Assembly (NCBI GenBank): GCA_027459775.1
Contig: DAIDHE010000065.1
Coordinates: forward strand, 1 to 64,000
Source of the DNA: Planctomycetales bacterium
GTDB taxonomy: Bacteria; Planctomycetota; Planctomycetia; Isosphaerales; Isosphaeraceae
DNA length: 64,000 nucleotides
Direction of reading: 5' to 3'
In this document: in pieces, positions 4,595 to 23,388 of the stretch
How the letters are laid out: the number at the start of each line of letters is the position of its first letter
Numbering within the stretch: the stretch's first letter is position 1
Program-made: the position numbers and the translations under genes
Notes under the pieces: generated by a model
Told to the model about the DNA's origin: nothing
The model's database searches: none
What the model saw: the letters and a program-made list of their open reading frames with translations, nothing else

Positions 4595-5158
4595 TTACGG
4601 CTTGGCGACGCCGATGACGCCGACGGCGAGCCGGCCGCCGGCGTTGCCGGTGGGTTGCGTTTTGAGGTCGTCGACCTTCTCATGCACGACCAGGCCGCGG
4701 CCGATGATCGAGGCGGCGCCGTGGAACGACATGTGCGGATCGTCGAGGTCGAGCGTGGCGACGCCCTTTTCGTTGGCGGTCACGTTACCCAGATCCCCCA
4801 CGTGGCGCTTGGTGCTGTCGGGGCCGGCGTGTTGAGCCTTCGTGGGGTTGAAGTGACCTCCCGAGGCCATGCCATCCTCGGACCAGACGCCGAATTCGTG
4901 GACGTGAAAGCCGTGCTCGCCGGGGGACAGCCCCGAGATCTCGGCGTGTACGTGAATCATGTGGCCGCTTTGCGTGAAGGTGACCCGCCCCTTCACGTCG
5001 CTCCCCTTGGTGGGAATGAGCAAGGCGACGGCCTTCGTGATCCCTGGCGCCGCGGCGGCCTTCTCATGCTGGGCGGTCGCCTGGCTCAAAAGTCCAACCG
5101 CTCCGTAGAATCCGAGCGTCGACGCCGCCAAGGCGGCAATCCCCTGCTTGATCGTCAT
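4595..5158 (-). CDS. Cu/Zn superoxide dismutase family protein, exported
   Basis: This is a copper/zinc superoxide dismutase that converts superoxide to oxygen and hydrogen peroxide in the periplasm. The ATG at 5158 is supported by GGGGAG just upstream and by a signal peptide (MTIKQGIAALAAST through ATAQ). The metal ligands are all visible: HVHEFG, GGHFNP, the His in AQHAGP, KRHVGDLGN with its Asp, and VVHEKVDD. The two cysteines of the usual intrasubunit disulfide are absent, since DGMASGGHFNP and GGRLAVGVIG stand where Cys-containing motifs are expected. Both partners are lost together, so the fold may lack the bridge. At 187 residues the length is normal. It is a single gene that converges on the DUF1559 gene. 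Confidence 0.93.
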   Translation of the reverse strand: MTIKQGIAALAASTLGFYGAVGLLSQATAQHEKAAAAPGITKAVALLIPTKGSDVKGRVTFTQSGHMIHVHAEISGLSPGEHGFHVHEFGVWSEDGMASGGHFNPTKAQHAGPDSTKRHVGDLGNVTANEKGVATLDLDDPHMSFHGAASIIGRGLVVHEKVDDLKTQPTGNAGGRLAVGVIGVAKP

Positions 5159-5385
5159 GTTGCATCTCCCCAAAGGTCCAACCGGCCGCGCGGAAACGCC
5201 CGCGCGGTTCACTCATGAACGGTAGCCGCGCCCGACCCGGCTCTCAAGAGGCTTGAGCACGCCGTGAATCCCGCAACCTCGAGCCATCAACCCATGGATT
5301 GCATCCCCCGAACCCATCACAATGGCGCATTCGATAAGCCCCTCGCTCGAGCCGTCAACCGAAAGAGCACCAGGATTCCTCGCGC

Positions 5386-6399
5386 ATGACGCACGATCAG
5401 CAGACTTCCTTGGCCCCTTTTGATGCTCTTGTGATCGCGCGGCTCCTCGTCAGCGCGGCGAAGGGCGACGTCCCCTCAAGAATCACAAAGGATCTGGGCC
5501 CGCTCCTTCCCACCCGCGGTTCAGCCCACGCCGGGGTCGAGCGGATCGAAAAGACGGTCGAGGGCCTGATCGCGAACGAGCTCGTCGAGCGCGTCTGGGG
5601 AAAATCCAAGAAAGCCGTCCCCAAGCTGCTTCTGACGGCCCAGGGCCGGCGCGTGGGCCTGGCCTTTCTGGGCCTTGCGGAGTTGCCGCCCAAGACGACC
5701 TGGGCGGCCGTCAAGAAGGTATACTTGCCGGGACGAGTGCTGGGACTCGAGCTGGCGAATCCCACGATTCGCAAGGCGATCAGCGCCGACGCGACGCTCA
5801 AGGCCGCGCTGTTCAAAAAGACCTTCGATTTGCCGATCCGCGATCTGCCCAAGCCGGCCGAGGCGTCCGACGCCCTGGCGTGGAAGCTCATGGGCTTCGA
5901 GGGCAAAAGCGAGAAAATGACTCTGAAGGCCGTCAAGACAGCGCTTTTCCATCGCGCCCTGGGCGATGCGCGGCCGACCGATTACGCACGGGCGGCCGGT
6001 CAGTTGCTGGCGAGGCGGATCGGGGCGATGCGCGACCATCCGGGTGAATTTCGGGAGGCGCTTCTCCGGGAGTGGCTCGACGCCAAGCCGGCAATGGCTT
6101 CGGCCGAGCTCGACCTGACCGACTTCGCCCAGCGCGTGAAGGCCGCGGCGACGACGTGCAAGACCGAGCGGCAGGGGAGCGACAAGGTCTATATCGCCCA
6201 CGTGTGGCGTTTGCTCGAGCACGAGCCGGCATTCGCCGCGATGGGGCCTGACGGCTTCAAGCAACGACTCGCCCAGGCCAATAATGAAGGAAAACTCGAG
6301 CTCCGCCGGGCCGACCTGGCGCACTTGATGGATCCCGACGACATCCGGCTCTCAGCGGTACAATATCTTGATACAACTTTTCATTTTGTCAAAGTCTGA
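5386..6399 (+). CDS. Winged-helix-like protein of unknown function, first gene of a two-gene module
   Basis: I do not recognise a named family. The protein is 337 residues, apparently cytoplasmic, with no signal peptide or membrane segment. Residues about 10-110 read like a winged-helix region (FDALVIARLLVSAAKG, then a helix-rich stretch and PKLLLTAQGRRVGLAFLGL). The C-terminal 90 residues read like a second one (KVYIAHVWRLLEH, then FKQRLAQANNEGKLELRRADLAHLM). The last motif resembles the end of winged-helix proteins that bind DNA next to ATPase partners. Only 27 bases separate it from the giant ATPase gene that follows, so the two are almost certainly cotranscribed and may form one complex. 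No strong ribosome site precedes the ATG. Confidence 0.75.
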   Translation: MTHDQQTSLAPFDALVIARLLVSAAKGDVPSRITKDLGPLLPTRGSAHAGVERIEKTVEGLIANELVERVWGKSKKAVPKLLLTAQGRRVGLAFLGLAELPPKTTWAAVKKVYLPGRVLGLELANPTIRKAISADATLKAALFKKTFDLPIRDLPKPAEASDALAWKLMGFEGKSEKMTLKAVKTALFHRALGDARPTDYARAAGQLLARRIGAMRDHPGEFREALLREWLDAKPAMASAELDLTDFAQRVKAAATTCKTERQGSDKVYIAHVWRLLEHEPAFAAMGPDGFKQRLAQANNEGKLELRRADLAHLMDPDDIRLSAVQYLDTTFHFVKV

Positions 6400-6426
6400 T
6401 CCTCTATCGACCTCGAAGTCACGACG

Positions 6427-9400
6427 ATGACCACGTCACCCGCGGTTCACGACGTCGAGCACGACCCCAGAGTCGCCGCGTTTTGCTCGACGCGGTTGCC
6501 CGAGTTGTTTCACGGCGTTGCCTACTCGAGCCTGATCTGGAAGACCGACCCGCTCGACGTCCCCTCGATTCACGCCCAGGCCCGAGAGACGTTCGAGCGC
6601 GTGATCGAGCGTGCGCTCGACGAGTCCACCTTGTCGAAGCCACGTATGCTCCTCTTGCTGGGCGAGGCGGGCTCGGGCAAGACGCATCTGATGCGTATCT
6701 TTCGCAACCTGGTCCAGGGCCAAGGGCTGGGCTATTGCGGCTTCATGCAAATGACCGCGGCCGCCCAGGAATACGATCGCTACATCTTGAACAATCTGAT
6801 CGATTCGCTGGACCAGCCCTATGACGAACAGGGTGCGACGACCGGGCTCAAACGACTCTCGACCGCGATGGCGGAGCTTATCCCGACCCAGGGGGCGACG
6901 CTGGCGCGGCTGCGCGAAGGGGGTCTGGAACAGGCCGAGATCGACGACCTCGTGAACGCCATCGCCGACGCGATCGCCCTCGATCCGCGTTTCGAATCGA
7001 TCGATCATCACCTGGTCCAGGTTCTGCTGCATTTGCAAACGAACACGCCGGCCGTCAAGACCCGGGTGCTCAAGTATCTGAGGTGCGAGGAATTGACGCG
7101 TCGCGACGTCGAGCGGCTAGGCGGCGTGCCCTGGCGTGGTTACGCCGGGGCAGCCGCGCGGATGATCCGGCTGCTGGGCCAGCTCATGTGGCTCGCGCAG
7201 AAAGCGCCTCTGGTCTTGTTCGTCGATCAACTCGAGGATCGATTCGACGTCGAAAACGCCTCCCAACAGTTTCGCCGCTTGATCGCGATGCTCTGCGACG
7301 TCGTGAGCCACGTCCCCTCGGCCGTCGTCGTTGTTTCGTGTCTCGCGGACCTGTTTGACCAAATGCGCGACAGCCTGACCAGACCGCAGACCGGGCGGTT
7401 GACGGCCCGGCCGAGCCCGATCGACCTGAAGACCGGCTGTGATTTCGGGCAGGTCGAGGAGTTGGTGGGCCAGCGGCTGCGCTACCTCTATGAGGAAGCC
7501 GGGATCGATCCCAGGAGCGACGAGCCGACATACCCGGTGCCCCGCGAATTCATGGCCAAGCTCGTGGGTCTGAGCGTCCGCGAGGTGCTCGATCATCTTG
7601 GGCGGTTCCGCGATCAATGGATCAAACAGTGTCCGAGTCAGGATGACCCTCCGCCGCCTCCTGGGACTGTTTCTCAGTCCGCGGATCAAATGGAACAAGA
7701 GTGGGATGTCTTTCGCTCGACGAGCACAGTCGACGTTCCAGACGAAGAGACCGCGCTCGCGGAAACCCTGGCGAAGGCGCTCGCGTGGTGTTCGGACGAA
7801 GTCGGTCCTGGGCGGCGAATCGAGGCGAAGTCCCAAGGCCGGCTGGTCGAGATCGACCAGCATGGCTCCGCGGCGACCGTTGGGGGGTTGGTTGTGGGAA
7901 TCTGCGACCGGCCGGCCCAGGGGGGCGGGCTGGGCAAGCAGATTCAAGAGCTCCTGCGGATGAGCGGCGCGCGCAGGATCGTGATTGTGCGAACGACCGA
8001 TTTCCCAACGAGCTCAAAGGCGCAGGTGACCAGGGAAATTGCCCGAATCATCGCCGCGGGGGGTCGAAAGGTGGTGATCGAGAATACCGACTGGCGGATC
8101 ATGGCGGCGATGGCGGCATTTCGCGGCGAACGCGCGCAGGCCCCGGGCTTTTCCGCCTGGCTCGAGCAGTACCGACCGTTGTCGGGCCTGGTCTCGATCC
8201 GCGAGATTCTGGATCTCGATTCCGGCGATGGAGGAAATGGTGGTCCGCCGTCGCCTCCGGTCGAGAAGCCGAAATCTTCTGTTTCGGTCCCGCCAGGCAG
8301 GCCGGACCGACCGCCAAGGGGCGAGGCTCCGAAGAGTCCGATACCTCCAGAACCTCCCTTGCCGTCCGGTCCTCTTCATCTGGGCCAGGTCAACGATCGG
8401 CGCGGCGATCCACTTGACATCGAGCCGGGATCGCTGACGCGCCACGCCGCGTTTTTGGGAAGTTCGGGAAGCGGCAAGACGACGGCGGCGCTGGCCGTGA
8501 TCGAGCAATTGTTGCTCCAGGGCGTTCCGGCGATCTTGATCGACCGTAAGGGGGATCTTTGTCCGTATGCTCAACCGGGAATGGGTTTACGGGACGAACT
8601 CGAGGGCGACGACCGGGCGCGGGCCATTCGGTTGCGCTCGAGAGTCGAGGTCGCGCTCTATACTCCGCGCAGACCCGACGGCAGGCCGCTCTCGATCGCC
8701 GCCGTTCCCGCAGGATTGGGCTCGCTCCCCTCTCATGAGCGCGAACAGGCCGCCAAGTACGCCGCCTCGGCCATCGCCGGAATGATGAATTACACGGGCA
8801 AGGGCCGCGATCAATCGCGGCTGGCGATTCTCATTCGGGCGATCGATTTGCTCAGCCAGGAAAGCCCCGAGCAAGCCGTGCCGATCGAGGCGCTGGTCGA
8901 CTTCATCGCCGAGCCCGACCTGGCGCTTTTGAATTCGGTCGGCCGGCTCGATCCCAAGCTCTTCATGCCCTTGGTTCAGGATCTCGAGACCCTGCGCCAT
9001 CATCGCGGCGATTTGCTCTCGGCCCAGGGAGAATCACTCGAGATCGAAAACCTTTTGGGGCTTGACGACGATCAACTCTCGGGCAAGACCAAGCTGTCGA
9101 TCGTGAGCACCCGATTTCTGGGAACCAATCCCGACGTGCAATTCTGGGTCGCTCAGTTCTTGATGGCCGTGGGCCGATTCATCGCGCGAGCGCCGGCGGA
9201 TCGGCTGCGCGCGGTGATCCTTTTTGACGAGGCCGATTTGTATCTTCCCGCGACCTCGAAACCGGCGACCAAGGAGCCCATGGAAAACCTGCTCCGCCGC
9301 GCGCGCTCGGCCGGCCTGGGTGTGATGCTGGGCACCCAGAGCCCGGGCGACCTCGATTACAAGTGCCGCGACAATATCCATTCGTGGTTCGTCGGCCAGG

Positions 9401-9624
9401 TCCGGGAAAAAAACTCGATCGACAAGCTCAAGCCCATGCTCAGCGAGTGCCGGTTTGACGCGCCAGCCAAACTCGCCAGCCAGAAACCAGGGGAATTCTT
9501 GCTCATCCGCGACGGCCATGCGACTCCGTTCAAATCGTCGCGATGCCTCGTGAACCCCGTCCAGGTGGCCGAGGAAGAGATCGCGGCCCTGGCGCGGGCG
9601 ACGATCCCGAGCCTGGCGTCCTGA
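6427..9624 (+). CDS. Double P-loop ATPase: AAA module fused to a HerA-like motor domain
   Basis: This 1065-residue protein carries two nucleotide-binding modules. The N-terminal AAA-type module has Walker A GEAGSGKT near residue 79 and Walker B LVLFVDQLEDR near residue 262, with helices resembling ORC/KAP-type ATPases. Residues about 450-600 form an alpha/beta region I cannot assign (VGGLVVGICDRP, RRIVIVRTTDFPTS, RKVVIENTDWRIM). A Pro-rich linker of about 60 residues follows. The C-terminal module has Walker A GSSGSGKT near residue 678, ILIDRKGDL, and Walker B AVILFDEADLYLP near residue 929, then RRARSAGLGVMLGTQSPGDL. This matches the HerA/DUF87 branch of DNA-pumping motors. It lies 27 bases after the winged-helix gene. 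A role in DNA processing, repair or defence is inferred from the architecture only. Confidence 0.85.
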   Translation: MTTSPAVHDVEHDPRVAAFCSTRLPELFHGVAYSSLIWKTDPLDVPSIHAQARETFERVIERALDESTLSKPRMLLLLGEAGSGKTHLMRIFRNLVQGQGLGYCGFMQMTAAAQEYDRYILNNLIDSLDQPYDEQGATTGLKRLSTAMAELIPTQGATLARLREGGLEQAEIDDLVNAIADAIALDPRFESIDHHLVQVLLHLQTNTPAVKTRVLKYLRCEELTRRDVERLGGVPWRGYAGAAARMIRLLGQLMWLAQKAPLVLFVDQLEDRFDVENASQQFRRLIAMLCDVVSHVPSAVVVVSCLADLFDQMRDSLTRPQTGRLTARPSPIDLKTGCDFGQVEELVGQRLRYLYEEAGIDPRSDEPTYPVPREFMAKLVGLSVREVLDHLGRFRDQWIKQCPSQDDPPPPPGTVSQSADQMEQEWDVFRSTSTVDVPDEETALAETLAKALAWCSDEVGPGRRIEAKSQGRLVEIDQHGSAATVGGLVVGICDRPAQGGGLGKQIQELLRMSGARRIVIVRTTDFPTSSKAQVTREIARIIAAGGRKVVIENTDWRIMAAMAAFRGERAQAPGFSAWLEQYRPLSGLVSIREILDLDSGDGGNGGPPSPPVEKPKSSVSVPPGRPDRPPRGEAPKSPIPPEPPLPSGPLHLGQVNDRRGDPLDIEPGSLTRHAAFLGSSGSGKTTAALAVIEQLLLQGVPAILIDRKGDLCPYAQPGMGLRDELEGDDRARAIRLRSRVEVALYTPRRPDGRPLSIAAVPAGLGSLPSHEREQAAKYAASAIAGMMNYTGKGRDQSRLAILIRAIDLLSQESPEQAVPIEALVDFIAEPDLALLNSVGRLDPKLFMPLVQDLETLRHHRGDLLSAQGESLEIENLLGLDDDQLSGKTKLSIVSTRFLGTNPDVQFWVAQFLMAVGRFIARAPADRLRAVILFDEADLYLPATSKPATKEPMENLLRRARSAGLGVMLGTQSPGDLDYKCRDNIHSWFVGQVREKNSIDKLKPMLSECRFDAPAKLASQKPGEFLLIRDGHATPFKSSRCLVNPVQVAEEEIAALARATIPSLAS

Positions 9625-13781: not shown

Positions 13782-14657
13782 TTACCAGGCCATTGATCGG
13801 CCTCGATCTGGCGACTCGAGCGAAAGCGGTGAAATGCGCGATTGGTCGAGATCTGGCTTCACGACCTGATCAGTCAGGCCCGCTTCTCGATCCATCGCGA
13901 GTTCCTTAACCACGACGCCGCTGGTTTCGAGAGCGATCATCCGTTCCCCGAGGAGGGCGACGCGAAGGGCGGCTTGATCAGGTGAAACGCCGCGGGCGTG
14001 GATGTTGGAGACAAGATTGCGCCGCGAGTCGTCGTGTCCGCCCCGGGGCTGATAGGCCAGATAGGCTGAAAGGCTTTGGGCCGTGGCCAGACCGGGTCGT
14101 TCGCCGATCAGAAGGACGACGACGGCGGGATTGAGGATTTCGCCGATGTCGTTCAACACGCCGACGCGCCCCCTACGAATGAAAAAGGGCCGGCCGAACG
14201 ACCACCCCCTGTGTTCGGCCTGCGCGGCCAAGAGCGGCAAAAGCGCGGGAACCTGGGCGATGACGGCCGCGGCGGAAAGACCGTCGGAGATCGCGACCTG
14301 GAGCATCGCGCCCTTGGTTCCATGCTCGGCGAGCTGGATCCGTGCCTCTGGGGCGAGCTTTCGTCCCAGCTCGGGATTCATGAGATAGTCGCGCCTGCTG
14401 GTCGCGAGAGTTGGGATCTCGAAGAGATTCCACTCCGAGAGAAACGCCGTCCCCAGGTCGCGGGCGAGCTCGAGCTCGAGCGAAACCGCGTCACGGGCGG
14501 CGGCATGATCGCGGCGGAGCTCGAGCCAGGTTGACGTGAGATAGACCGGAGCGGCTGGCCCGACCATGATTCGAGCGGGCGTCCGCGCTCGAATCGCGTC
14601 AAGTGCGAAGGGCGACCTTGATGTCGGCTCGATCGGTCCGGGGTTTTGGTCCGTCAT
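13782..14657 (-). CDS. eutC: Ethanolamine ammonia-lyase small subunit
   Basis: This is the small subunit of the adenosylcobalamin-dependent lyase that splits ethanolamine into acetaldehyde and ammonia. Family marks include ARIMVGPAAPVYLT (an arrangement variant of the usual N-terminus), RRDYLMNPELGRKL, VAISDGLSAAA, PFFIRRGRVGVLNDIGE, LLIGERPGLATAQSLSAYL and RRNLVSNIHARGVSP. At 291 residues it has the normal length. It is the last gene of a three-gene set on the minus strand, 43 bases after the permease gene, and is probably cotranscribed with eutB through that gene. The two subunits must assemble, so shared transcription makes sense. Confidence 0.95.
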   Translation of the reverse strand: MTDQNPGPIEPTSRSPFALDAIRARTPARIMVGPAAPVYLTSTWLELRRDHAAARDAVSLELELARDLGTAFLSEWNLFEIPTLATSRRDYLMNPELGRKLAPEARIQLAEHGTKGAMLQVAISDGLSAAAVIAQVPALLPLLAAQAEHRGWSFGRPFFIRRGRVGVLNDIGEILNPAVVVLLIGERPGLATAQSLSAYLAYQPRGGHDDSRRNLVSNIHARGVSPDQAALRVALLGERMIALETSGVVVKELAMDREAGLTDQVVKPDLDQSRISPLSLESPDRGRSMAW

Positions 14658-14700
14658 GTCGTGGGCCTCGATTCGCGTCGAGATTCTCTGGGATGATCGA

Positions 14701-16206
14701 TCAAGCCAATCGATTCAGTTCTATGTGTGGCGGCCCCTTGAAGCGACGGCGAACTCCGCCGTTCCAGGCGATGGCCAGAACGAGCGCGAAACCGAAGACC
14801 ACCCACGCCGCCCGGTCGTTGGGCGGCTGCATGCCGATCAGGATGAGGACAAGACAACCAAGGACCGCGGCCGCGGCCAGCGGGCGATACCAGCTCCCGA
14901 GAGTCCAGGGTCCGCATGCTGTCCACGTTCGACCATGGGTCCAGGCCCCGAGCGCCGTCGGCAAAACGTAAGACAAATAGAGAAAGATCGTGCAGACCGC
15001 CGTGATCGTCGAATAAACCGGCGTGCTCAGCGTGAACAAAACCGAAGCCGTCGCCACGATCCAGATGGCAACGGCCGGGGTTTTGCGCCGGGGACAGACC
15101 CAACTCATCGACTTGGAGGCGGGGAGCCCGCCGTCACGCGCGAATGCGTAGGCCATGCGCGAGGCAGAGGTCACCGTCGCCAGGCCGCACAAATACTGCG
15201 CCGTCACGATGCCCCCCAGAAGAGTGATTGCCAGGGGGCGAGGCAAGACGCCGTGCACGATCGCCAGAAACGCCCCCTCGCCGAGCCTGGCAGCCGCCGG
15301 TGGATCGGGAGCGGCCAGGACGACCGTCCCGAGCAAGATCCATCCGACCACGCCCGAGACCACAACCGAACGCACAATGCCTTGAGGAACGTTCCAATCG
15401 GCACGGATGGTTTCCTCGGCCGCGTGCGCCGACGCATCAAAACCCGTGATCGTATAAGCGGGAAGCAGCAGCCCCAGCGCGAATAGATAGGAAAGGCTCT
15501 GGGTTGCGGGCCAGACGTCGCCGCCGGACGGACCGGCATGATTGGCCAGAGTAACGAGTCGAGCGGGCTCAAAACTTGGGGCGAAAACAAGCAAGCAAAC
15601 GGCCAGCGCGGTCGCGATCAAGAGAATCCAGTACCCGCTGAAATCCGTCAGGCGGGCCGTGAGGCCGATTCCCAGGTGGTTCACGGCTGCCTGCGAGCCG
15701 GTGACGATCACCAGCCCGCAGGCCTGATACATGGGATCGAGCAGCGGAGACGCGATTGCGCCTGAGTGATCGGCCAGTCCCCAGACGGTCAGGGCGAATC
15801 GATACATCCCCACGTTGATGGCGGCGAGCACGGTCACGAGCCCCGCCAGGTTGAACCAGGCGACGGTCCATCCCCAGCCCGGTCCGCCCAGAATGGCCGC
15901 CCAGTGGTACAGCCCCCCGGCGGTGGGATACGCCGACGCGAGCTGGCCCATCGCGGCCGCCACGATCACCGCGAAGCCGCACGCCAGCGGCCAGCCCAGA
16001 CCAATGGCCGCGCCGCCCGTCGCCGAGTAACCCAGGTGAAACGAAGTCACCCCGCCCGCCAGCACGCAAATGATCGAGAGTGAAAGGGCGAAATTCGAGA
16101 AACCGCTCAGCCGCCGGGCCAACTCTTGCCGATAGCCCAGCGCGTGAAGCCGCCGCGAGTCGTCGTCGAGCGATGGGTCGTCATCCACGGCAAGAGGTGG
16201 CTTCAT
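14701..16206 (-). CDS. APC-family amino acid/ethanolamine permease
   Basis: This is an amino acid-polyamine-organocation permease of about 501 residues with about 12 membrane segments. It opens with a short cytoplasmic tail, then RRLSGFSNFALSLSIICVLAG and the helix-break motif typical of this family (YPTAGGLYHWAAILGGPGW). A later conserved stretch is ITGFDASAHAAEETIRADWN. The ATG at 16206 is preferred: it lies 10 bases after the eutB stop with an AAGCACGGA element upstream, whereas the in-frame ATG at 16230 would overlap eutB and has no ribosome site. Its place between eutB and eutC makes ethanolamine the most likely substrate, but sequence alone cannot exclude GABA or another amine. Confidence 0.88.
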   Translation of the reverse strand: MKPPLAVDDDPSLDDDSRRLHALGYRQELARRLSGFSNFALSLSIICVLAGGVTSFHLGYSATGGAAIGLGWPLACGFAVIVAAAMGQLASAYPTAGGLYHWAAILGGPGWGWTVAWFNLAGLVTVLAAINVGMYRFALTVWGLADHSGAIASPLLDPMYQACGLVIVTGSQAAVNHLGIGLTARLTDFSGYWILLIATALAVCLLVFAPSFEPARLVTLANHAGPSGGDVWPATQSLSYLFALGLLLPAYTITGFDASAHAAEETIRADWNVPQGIVRSVVVSGVVGWILLGTVVLAAPDPPAAARLGEGAFLAIVHGVLPRPLAITLLGGIVTAQYLCGLATVTSASRMAYAFARDGGLPASKSMSWVCPRRKTPAVAIWIVATASVLFTLSTPVYSTITAVCTIFLYLSYVLPTALGAWTHGRTWTACGPWTLGSWYRPLAAAAVLGCLVLILIGMQPPNDRAAWVVFGFALVLAIAWNGGVRRRFKGPPHIELNRLA

Positions 16207-16216
16207 TCCGTGCTTT

Positions 16217-17638
16217 TCATCCACGAGCATCGGGGGAATTGAGAATGCGCTCGACTTGTTCGAGCATTTTCCGTGAATCGGTGCGGCCGTTGGGGATGGG
16301 CGCGACCCCCGAGGGCAAACCTCGTTCGACAAGCCAGCGCTCGAATTCCGGGGCTGGAGCAAGGCCCATTAATCGCCGAGCGGCCAGGGCGTCGTGATAG
16401 CTCGTGGACTGATAATTGAGCATGACATCGTCGCCGCAAGGTACGCCCATCACGTAATTACAACCCGCGAGGGCCAGCAACAGCAGGAGATTATCGGCCG
16501 AGTTTTGATCAGCGTCCGCATGATTGGTGTAGCAAACGTCGACTCCCATCGGCAGCCCCAACAATTTTCCCATGAAATGGTCTTCGAGTCCCGCCCGAAT
16601 GATCTGGCGCTCGTCAAAGAGATACTCAGGACCGATGAAGCCGACGACGCTGTTGACCAGGAACGGGTCAAACGCCCGGGCAACGCCATACGCGCGCGCC
16701 TCAAGGGTAAGCTGGTCAACCCCGTGGTGCGCCCCGGCCGAAAGGGCGCTCCCCTGCCCTGTCTCGAAATACATCGCCTGCTCGCCGACCCAGGAAACTT
16801 CTCGAGATCGGTGGTGGTCGAGAACTCGCGCCCGCCCTTCGGCGATCAGGGCCAGGTTGACGCCAAAGCTCTGATTGGCGGTCTCGGTTCCGGCCACCGA
16901 TTGAAACAGTAAATCCACCGGCGCTCCTTGTTCGAGAGCGGCGAGCTGGGTCGTGATATGGGCCAGGCAGCAAGCCTGGGTCGGCACCCCGAGGCCCTCG
17001 ATCAGGCGATCAAGAGCGTGTAGGACGCCCTGCACGACCGGGACGGATTCCGCGGCGGGGTTGACGCCGATCACCGCGTCGCCGCAGCCATGGAGCAAAC
17101 CATCGACGGCCGCGAGCAAGATTCCGCCCAGATCGTCCGTGGGGTGGTTGGGCTGCACGCGGACGCCCAGGACACCCCGTTCTCCCATGGTATTGCGACA
17201 ACCTGTGACGACGCGGATCTTGCTGGCGGCGAGGATCAGATCCTTGTTGCCCATCAGCTTGGCCACGGCGGCTGCGATCTCGGGAACGAGCCCCGGCGCG
17301 AGCGACTCGAGCATCCGCGGCGTCGTCGCGTCGTCCAAGATCCACTCGCGAAAGGCGCCGACCGTCATAGCCTGGAATGGTGCGAAAACGGGCTGGTCGA
17401 TCCGCTCAAGAATGAGCCGGCTGACTTCGTCGTGATCTGGGTCAATCACGGGTTCGTTCATGAGCTCGCCCAGCGTGAGATCGGCCAAAACCTGTTTCGC
17501 CGCGATTCGTTCACGTTCGCTCTTGGCAGCTAGCCCGGCGAGCTGATCCCCCGATTTCTGCTCGTTGGCTCGGGCCAAGACGGCGCGAAGGTCGGCGAAT
17601 TGGAATCGTTCGCCGTGAATCACCGTCGATCGAGTCAC
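16217..17638 (-). CDS. eutB: Ethanolamine ammonia-lyase large subunit
   Basis: This is the catalytic and cobalamin-binding large subunit of ethanolamine ammonia-lyase. The 473 residues align along the whole length with the known family: RSGDQLAG-like KSGDQLAGLAA, RIAAKQVLADLTLGEL, GDAVIGVNPAAES, PTQACCLAHITTQ, YFETGQGSALSAGA, GFIGPEYLFDERQIIRAGLE, DHFMGKLLGLPMG and CYTNHADADQN. The GTG at 17638 is used as start, with GGAAG about twelve bases upstream; the first residues then match the expected N-terminus. It heads a set eutB-permease-eutC. No shell-protein, reactivase (eutA) or aldehyde dehydrogenase genes are in the window, so acetaldehyde would be handled without a visible microcompartment. 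Confidence 0.96.
   Translation of the reverse strand: MTRSTVIHGERFQFADLRAVLARANEQKSGDQLAGLAAKSERERIAAKQVLADLTLGELMNEPVIDPDHDEVSRLILERIDQPVFAPFQAMTVGAFREWILDDATTPRMLESLAPGLVPEIAAAVAKLMGNKDLILAASKIRVVTGCRNTMGERGVLGVRVQPNHPTDDLGGILLAAVDGLLHGCGDAVIGVNPAAESVPVVQGVLHALDRLIEGLGVPTQACCLAHITTQLAALEQGAPVDLLFQSVAGTETANQSFGVNLALIAEGRARVLDHHRSREVSWVGEQAMYFETGQGSALSAGAHHGVDQLTLEARAYGVARAFDPFLVNSVVGFIGPEYLFDERQIIRAGLEDHFMGKLLGLPMGVDVCYTNHADADQNSADNLLLLLALAGCNYVMGVPCGDDVMLNYQSTSYHDALAARRLMGLAPAPEFERWLVERGLPSGVAPIPNGRTDSRKMLEQVERILNSPDARG

Positions 17639-18399: not shown

Positions 18400-18403
<4 letters not shown>
17792..18403 (+). CDS. RedB-like thioredoxin-fold protein
   Basis: The 203-residue protein resembles the proteins annotated as RedB in planctomycetes and myxobacteria; no biochemical role is established that I know of. 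It has one N-terminal membrane segment (TTAAVVAWGLLVGAGMSVLHA), then a thioredoxin-like region: PTLLVFLDLKCPCARATMAEL carries a CPC motif, and FGIATSGHVLLF, GRLIYQGGVTGARGHEG follow. A periplasmic redox or metal-binding role is plausible from the paired cysteines. The ATG at 17792 starts at the membrane segment. Its stop overlaps the start of the hybrid kinase gene by four bases (ATGA), so both are translated together. The same neighbour pair is known in other planctomycetes, which suggests a sensory link. Confidence 0.8.

Positions 18404-23384
<4,981 letters not shown>

Positions 23385-23388
<4 letters not shown>

Follow-up and report, generated by a model that had tools for sequence, protein, structure and literature searches.

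What is the function of a gene pair in which a putative DNA-binding protein is followed by a protein with two different ATPases, one of them resembling the HerA motors, and where, if anywhere, is the nuclease of such a machine? The question is raised by two adjacent genes in the window, by which we mean the whole 64,000 nucleotide stretch of a Planctomycetales contig that was analysed. The original prediction of a two-gene unit with a 27-base gap holds, as the coordinates were confirmed (ORF1 encodes 337 aa and ORF2 1065 aa) and homologues of ORF1 lie upstream in relatives. The genes and their site are as follows.

4595..5212, reverse strand: sodC, Cu/Zn superoxide dismutase, which one clade conserves beside the pair at this chromosomal site; it is taken as a neighbour and not as a component of the system
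5213..5385, no strand: intergenic region of 173 bp between the divergent sodC and ORF1, the site of the nuclease gene in relatives such as G025, G034 and G006
5386..6399, forward strand: ORF1, with a predicted winged helix at the N-terminus, helices in the middle and a conserved wHTH-like domain at the C-terminus
6427..9624, forward strand: ORF2, with an AAA_16 ATPase, a middle domain, a linker and a HerA-like ATPase

Homologues of ORF2 with 44-56% identity are found in many Isosphaeraceae genomes and an ORF1 homologue is directly upstream whenever both share a contig, therefore the pair is not a chance arrangement. The neighbours in the window are genes which we take, in some cases from sequence, to encode DUF1501, TolC-like, DUF1559, SodC and DUF3124 proteins, an ATP-dependent DNA ligase and a beta-lactamase-fold exonuclease-like protein. 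Further along, the gene order at 13782-17638 is like that of eutC, an amino-acid permease and eutB (ethanolamine ammonia-lyase), and 18400-23388 is a single gene for what is presumably a hybrid sensor kinase of 1662 aa, in which receiver domains accompany several PAS-like repeats, both being named from sequence.

ORF2 is indeed the fusion of an AAA and a HerA-like ATPase that had been proposed, with two complete P-loops and a Pro-rich linker; its parts are:

6661..6684, forward strand: AAA_16 Walker A, GEAGSGKT (residues 79-86), retained in shortened (type C) homologues
7222-7239, forward strand: AAA_16 Walker B, VDQLED (residues 266-271), likewise retained there
7732..8226, forward strand: middle domain (residues 436-600), predicted alpha-beta-beta-beta-alpha-beta-alpha-beta, without conserved catalytic residues
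8227..8373, forward strand: Pro-rich, predicted disordered linker (about residues 601-649)
8374..9537, forward strand: HerA-like motor (residues 650-1037), from sequence and structure
8458-8481, forward strand: motor Walker A, GSSGSGKT (residues 678-685)
9220-9237, forward strand: motor Walker B, LFDEAD (residues 932-937)

Within this one protein Pfam AAA_16 matches residues 59-300 (4e-14) and HerA_C and DUF87 match residues 651-724 (7.5e-12 and 6.9e-9 respectively), with PF05872/PF01935 above cutoff, and both Walker A/B pairs are intact. The best match amongst the PADLOC and NCBIfam models is to mad8 (2.5e-24 over 656-1034), the others being weak or confined to the motor. In the AlphaFold2 model (pLDDT 87) the linker falls below a pLDDT of 50 over residues 601-638, and Foldseek places the motor with HerA of NurA-HerA (E=1.4e-11), with the Sir2-HerA and DUF4297-HerA complexes and also with TrwB, which together with the profile matches points to a RecA-like core of the HerA/DUF87 type with Walker A and B present. 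A HAS-barrel is absent from the model, where 601-638 is disordered and only two short strands (650-655 and 662-665) precede the P-loop strand.

The partner had been predicted to carry winged helices, and for its N-terminus profile, model and structural searches all agree with this. The two domains are:

5416..5670, forward strand: ORF1 N-terminal winged helix, MarR/PadR-like (residues 11-95)
6115..6393, forward strand: ORF1 C-terminal domain with wHTH-like element order (residues 244-336), from alignment and predicted secondary structure

The N-terminus matches MarR 3cdh by profile (E=0.0085), and the AlphaFold2 model of ORF1 (mean pLDDT 89) gives Foldseek matches with a probability of about 1.0 to many MarR/PadR/HxlR proteins, with a target-normalised TM of 0.4-0.7 and E above 0.02; these E-values are individually weak but consistent, and suggest a MarR/PadR-like wHTH fold. 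The C-terminal domain is the most conserved part of the protein in the alignment, with the pattern RxG..K.(F/Y)I..V...FK..L..N....L.RADL...FHF, and from its element order its fold would be wHTH-like. No Pfam, NCBIfam or PADLOC model covers the partner protein.

It is in the middle domain of ORF2, at residues 450-600, that a hidden nuclease had been suspected. The predicted order of its elements does fit the PD-(D/E)XK core alpha-beta-beta-beta-alpha-beta, and the CNK of most members of family I, the family of the window pair, recalls the (Q/E)xK motif, whereas the window has CDR (7903-7911). However, the would-be catalytic positions vary across 32 homologues (CNK, CDR, CNG, CEA, CNA and CNR), the sheet of the domain has no invariant acidic pair, and the sister family (family II, below) lacks the would-be catalytic residues. 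A Pfam scan of the middle domains of 15 members gave no family match, and against the Mrr profile the hhalign probability was below 1% with a local score within the shuffled null; in global mode some sets scored above the null against Mrr, but the alignment spanned only 13 end residues and the result was therefore disregarded. Furthermore, in full operons the domain coexists with a separate nuclease. With unconserved catalytic positions and negative profile tests the claim of a hidden nuclease is not supported, although the predicted topology fits, and it is highly improbable that an active PD-(D/E)XK enzyme in this position replaces the one that was lost. The likelier reading is that the domain would be a structural remnant of a nuclease that is used for binding. 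The middle domains of families I and II match by profile at 97%.

The suspicion that the system includes a nuclease was nevertheless a good one, as in at least nine relatives (G006, G011, G016, G025, G028, G034, G035, G043 and G074, the last of which is outside the Isosphaeraceae) a third gene lies directly upstream of ORF1. Its product of about 390-440 aa has a C-terminal DUF559 (PD-(D/E)XK-type) domain that is above the Pfam cutoff and has invariant motif residues. In G011, G016, G025, G028, G034 and G074 the end of this gene and the start of ORF1 share an ATGA in which stop and start codon overlap, and in G035 they share a GTGA. The statement that no nuclease is adjacent is therefore correct for the window but not for the family. 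A degenerate paralogue of the AAA module (P-loop fold) was considered for the long N-terminal region of this protein and rejected, the profile comparison of 8.5% being only a weak hint. In G047, apparently a decaying copy, the nuclease frame is broken and an IS-like pair of transposase-like genes splits the ATPase gene (L073 9629-10757), and in G011 the ATPase frame is split near residue 680, at the start of the motor, by an apparent frameshift that may be a sequencing error (L069 9004-11397 and 8147-9304). A search for traces of the nuclease gene in the window, including the 173 bp that separate sodC from ORF1, found none. Nor was a copy of it found elsewhere in the genome (G000), which is 89.7% complete, so that an unlinked copy is possible.

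The same layout recurs in the sister family. In six genomes (G002, G010, G015, G029, G036 and G440) a divergent ATPase of this architecture is preceded by a DUF559 nuclease, and wherever the intervening stretch was read it encodes a small protein; a further three (G004, G023 and G039) have the sister-family ATPase, but the pieces examined showed no nuclease. The order of nuclease, small protein and ATPase recurs in Tsukamurella, Nonomuraea and Methylobacterium, where large plasmids or chromids carry it, and so spans Planctomycetota, Actinomycetota and Alphaproteobacteria; in Tsukamurella the genes, whose ends overlap, are annotated as a DUF559 protein, a hypothetical protein and a DUF87 protein. 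In two other planctomycetes (G393 and G400) the nuclease and the ATPase are about 0.7-0.8 kb apart, and the nuclease match in G400 has two stop codons. The nuclease domains of the two families are homologous by profile (99%, 4e-20), whereas the small partners give only a weak match (22%), so that they share a position whilst their homology is unproven. A locus in G010 (L126 8175-8921) has nuclease-like fragments with an internal stop and neither of the other two genes, and appears to be an orphan remnant.

Families I and II are well separated in a maximum likelihood tree of the AAA-plus-middle part (100/100), in which some deep forks are weakly supported. Within family I the nuclease-bearing forms are basal and the window groups with shortened forms of genus g17 (97/97); these type C forms end near residue 600, have no HerA half and arise twice in the tree. 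On a fewest-changes reading there would have been one ancestral three-gene operon, from which the nuclease would have been lost several times and the motor twice, and it looks as though the nuclease was lost in the window's lineage and the HerA half also in two other lineages. Members of the window's clade are mostly beside the Cu/Zn superoxide dismutase gene (an adjacency seen in about ten genomes), which argues for descent in place. Pairwise dN/dS is 0.20-0.39 in the shortened forms and 0.12-0.45 in the full forms, the former values indicating that the reduced core is still under purifying selection. The ORF1 profile is found in 19 of 45 genomes of the family and in four of 392 in an even draw across the phylum, and neither G001 nor G002, the other two genomes examined from the genus of the window, has it; a single-sequence scan of genome contigs found only two loci.

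The adjacency to sodC might suggest a domesticated regulatory use, with ORF1 regulating the divergent sodC across the 173-bp intergenic region through its MarR/PadR-like N-terminus and the ATPase acting as a co-factor. The adjacency may however be mere shared inheritance, basal homologues are not beside sodC, and the ATPase and nuclease would be left unexplained; we regard this as very unlikely. A housekeeping role in DNA repair or end-processing, akin to the resection carried out by NurA-HerA, would better account for the vertical descent at a single site that a clade of 14 members shows, for the purifying selection and for the housekeeping neighbours, but the system is absent from most Planctomycetota and from the two other examined members of its genus, and its nuclease has been lost several times independently, all of which makes such a role rather unlikely.

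The idea of a defence system, in which foreign phage or plasmid DNA would be recognised and destroyed and the window copy would be a nuclease-less degraded or effector-swapped variant, is a stronger contender, albeit one that we would still place somewhat short of an even chance. The combination of nuclease and HerA resembles the Sir2-HerA and DUF4297-HerA complexes, the mad8/HerA models of PADLOC match the motor, the occurrence is patchy, G047 has its IS-like insertion and broken nuclease frame, and the Tsukamurella copy adjoins VapBC and a helicase. Against this, a single clear defence protein, a Septu PtuA-like ATPase, is found among 121 neighbours of family I (a count and not an enrichment test), of the mad models only mad3 and mad8 are matched in the PADLOC scan of neighbours, with the mad3 matches looking like generic ABC ATPases, the site beside sodC is fixed in one clade, and no homologue was found in viral contigs or phages by low-sensitivity searches (the viral scan used short peptide patterns and is weak for absence). 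Composition and patchiness favour a role in conflict and the fixed housekeeping location does not.

In G018 (L075 14504-16715) the shortened ATPase is tail-to-tail with what is probably a Septu system, made up of the gene for a PtuA-like ATPase and a short HNH-like frame, and these neighbours are shared by the related genome G031 (L074). On a record of Tsukamurella tyrosinosolvens that is labelled a plasmid (plasmid 22, L128 1830-16909) the sister operon, VapBC and a DEAD/DEAH helicase lie between the halves of a ribosomal-protein gene cluster.

The original prediction, of an undescribed defence or repair system, had itself named location in housekeeping loci as a point against it, and one half of that case is what was found, as the pair keeps to one place next to sodC with housekeeping genes around it. 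The neighbourhood thus gives no support to defence. The operon is apparently undescribed, and no paper on it, nor one naming DUF87 together with DUF559, was found in the literature searched. The patchy occurrence, the repeated loss of parts and the nuclease and HerA composition make a defence origin possible, and the ancestral role may have been defence, repair or something else.

Our preferred reading is that the window pair is probably a reduced form of an operon for a DUF559 nuclease, a winged-helix protein and an ATPase (AAA, pseudo-nuclease-like domain and HerA-like motor) that translocates or processes DNA in the manner of HerA-nuclease systems. It starts from the way the operon is built in relatives, from the domains found, from the absence of the nuclease here and from the purifying selection on the core in related reduced forms. 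In such a machine the winged-helix protein would bind DNA and bring in or control the ATPase, the AAA module may sense or load and so control the motor, and the HerA-like part, as a predicted ring, would pump duplex DNA; in full operons the DUF559 enzyme would cut the DNA presented to it, by analogy with HerA-nuclease complexes. With the nuclease gone, the complex of the window genome would be a nuclease-free DNA translocase or remodeller, or would use a nuclease encoded elsewhere. As the nuclease has been lost, the motor has been lost in two lineages and the core has been kept, the function of the core would need neither the cutting nor the pumping of DNA, and the picture of nuclease and motor may therefore miss what matters in the window genome. 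The chances seem evenly balanced that this is a rare, cross-phylum and apparently undescribed three-gene system that sheds its nuclease and motor stepwise whilst an adaptor and AAA core is selected for a function of its own, for example DNA sensing or signalling. What was an orphan gene pair is tied to a larger operon that includes a DUF559 nuclease, in which nature has removed first the nuclease and next the motor with the rest still selected, and the full and reduced versions are a ready-made set for studying the role of the regulatory half of a HerA-type machine when it acts alone.

How does this compare with known systems? The FtsK/HerA conjugation-type ATPases TrwB and CedD belong to the same motor superfamily, but there are no conjugation neighbours among the window genes examined. 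MADS is an eight-gene set with methyltransferase and specificity genes. The C-terminal half of ORF2 resembles its mad8; however, that model of about 314 aa covers the motor only, the remaining mad genes have no convincing counterpart in the operon (the mad3 match is at only 0.002), and neither methyltransferase nor specificity genes are among the window neighbours examined. The third gene of the relatives is like the DUF559/MTES_1575 nucleases in its domain and invariant motif residues and differs from them in its long N-terminal region without a Pfam match. The closest likeness is to NurA-HerA, Sir2-HerA and DUF4297-HerA, the best Foldseek matches, in each of which the gene for a HerA-superfamily motor shares its operon with one for a nuclease or effector; such a partner gene is beside the motor in the nine or more relatives and not in the window. 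Unlike these systems, the motor of the window family lacks the HAS-barrel typical of HerA and follows an AAA_16 ATPase and a middle domain in one polypeptide, the nuclease of the relatives is of the DUF559 type and not NurA, Sir2 or DUF4297, and there is an extra winged-helix protein.
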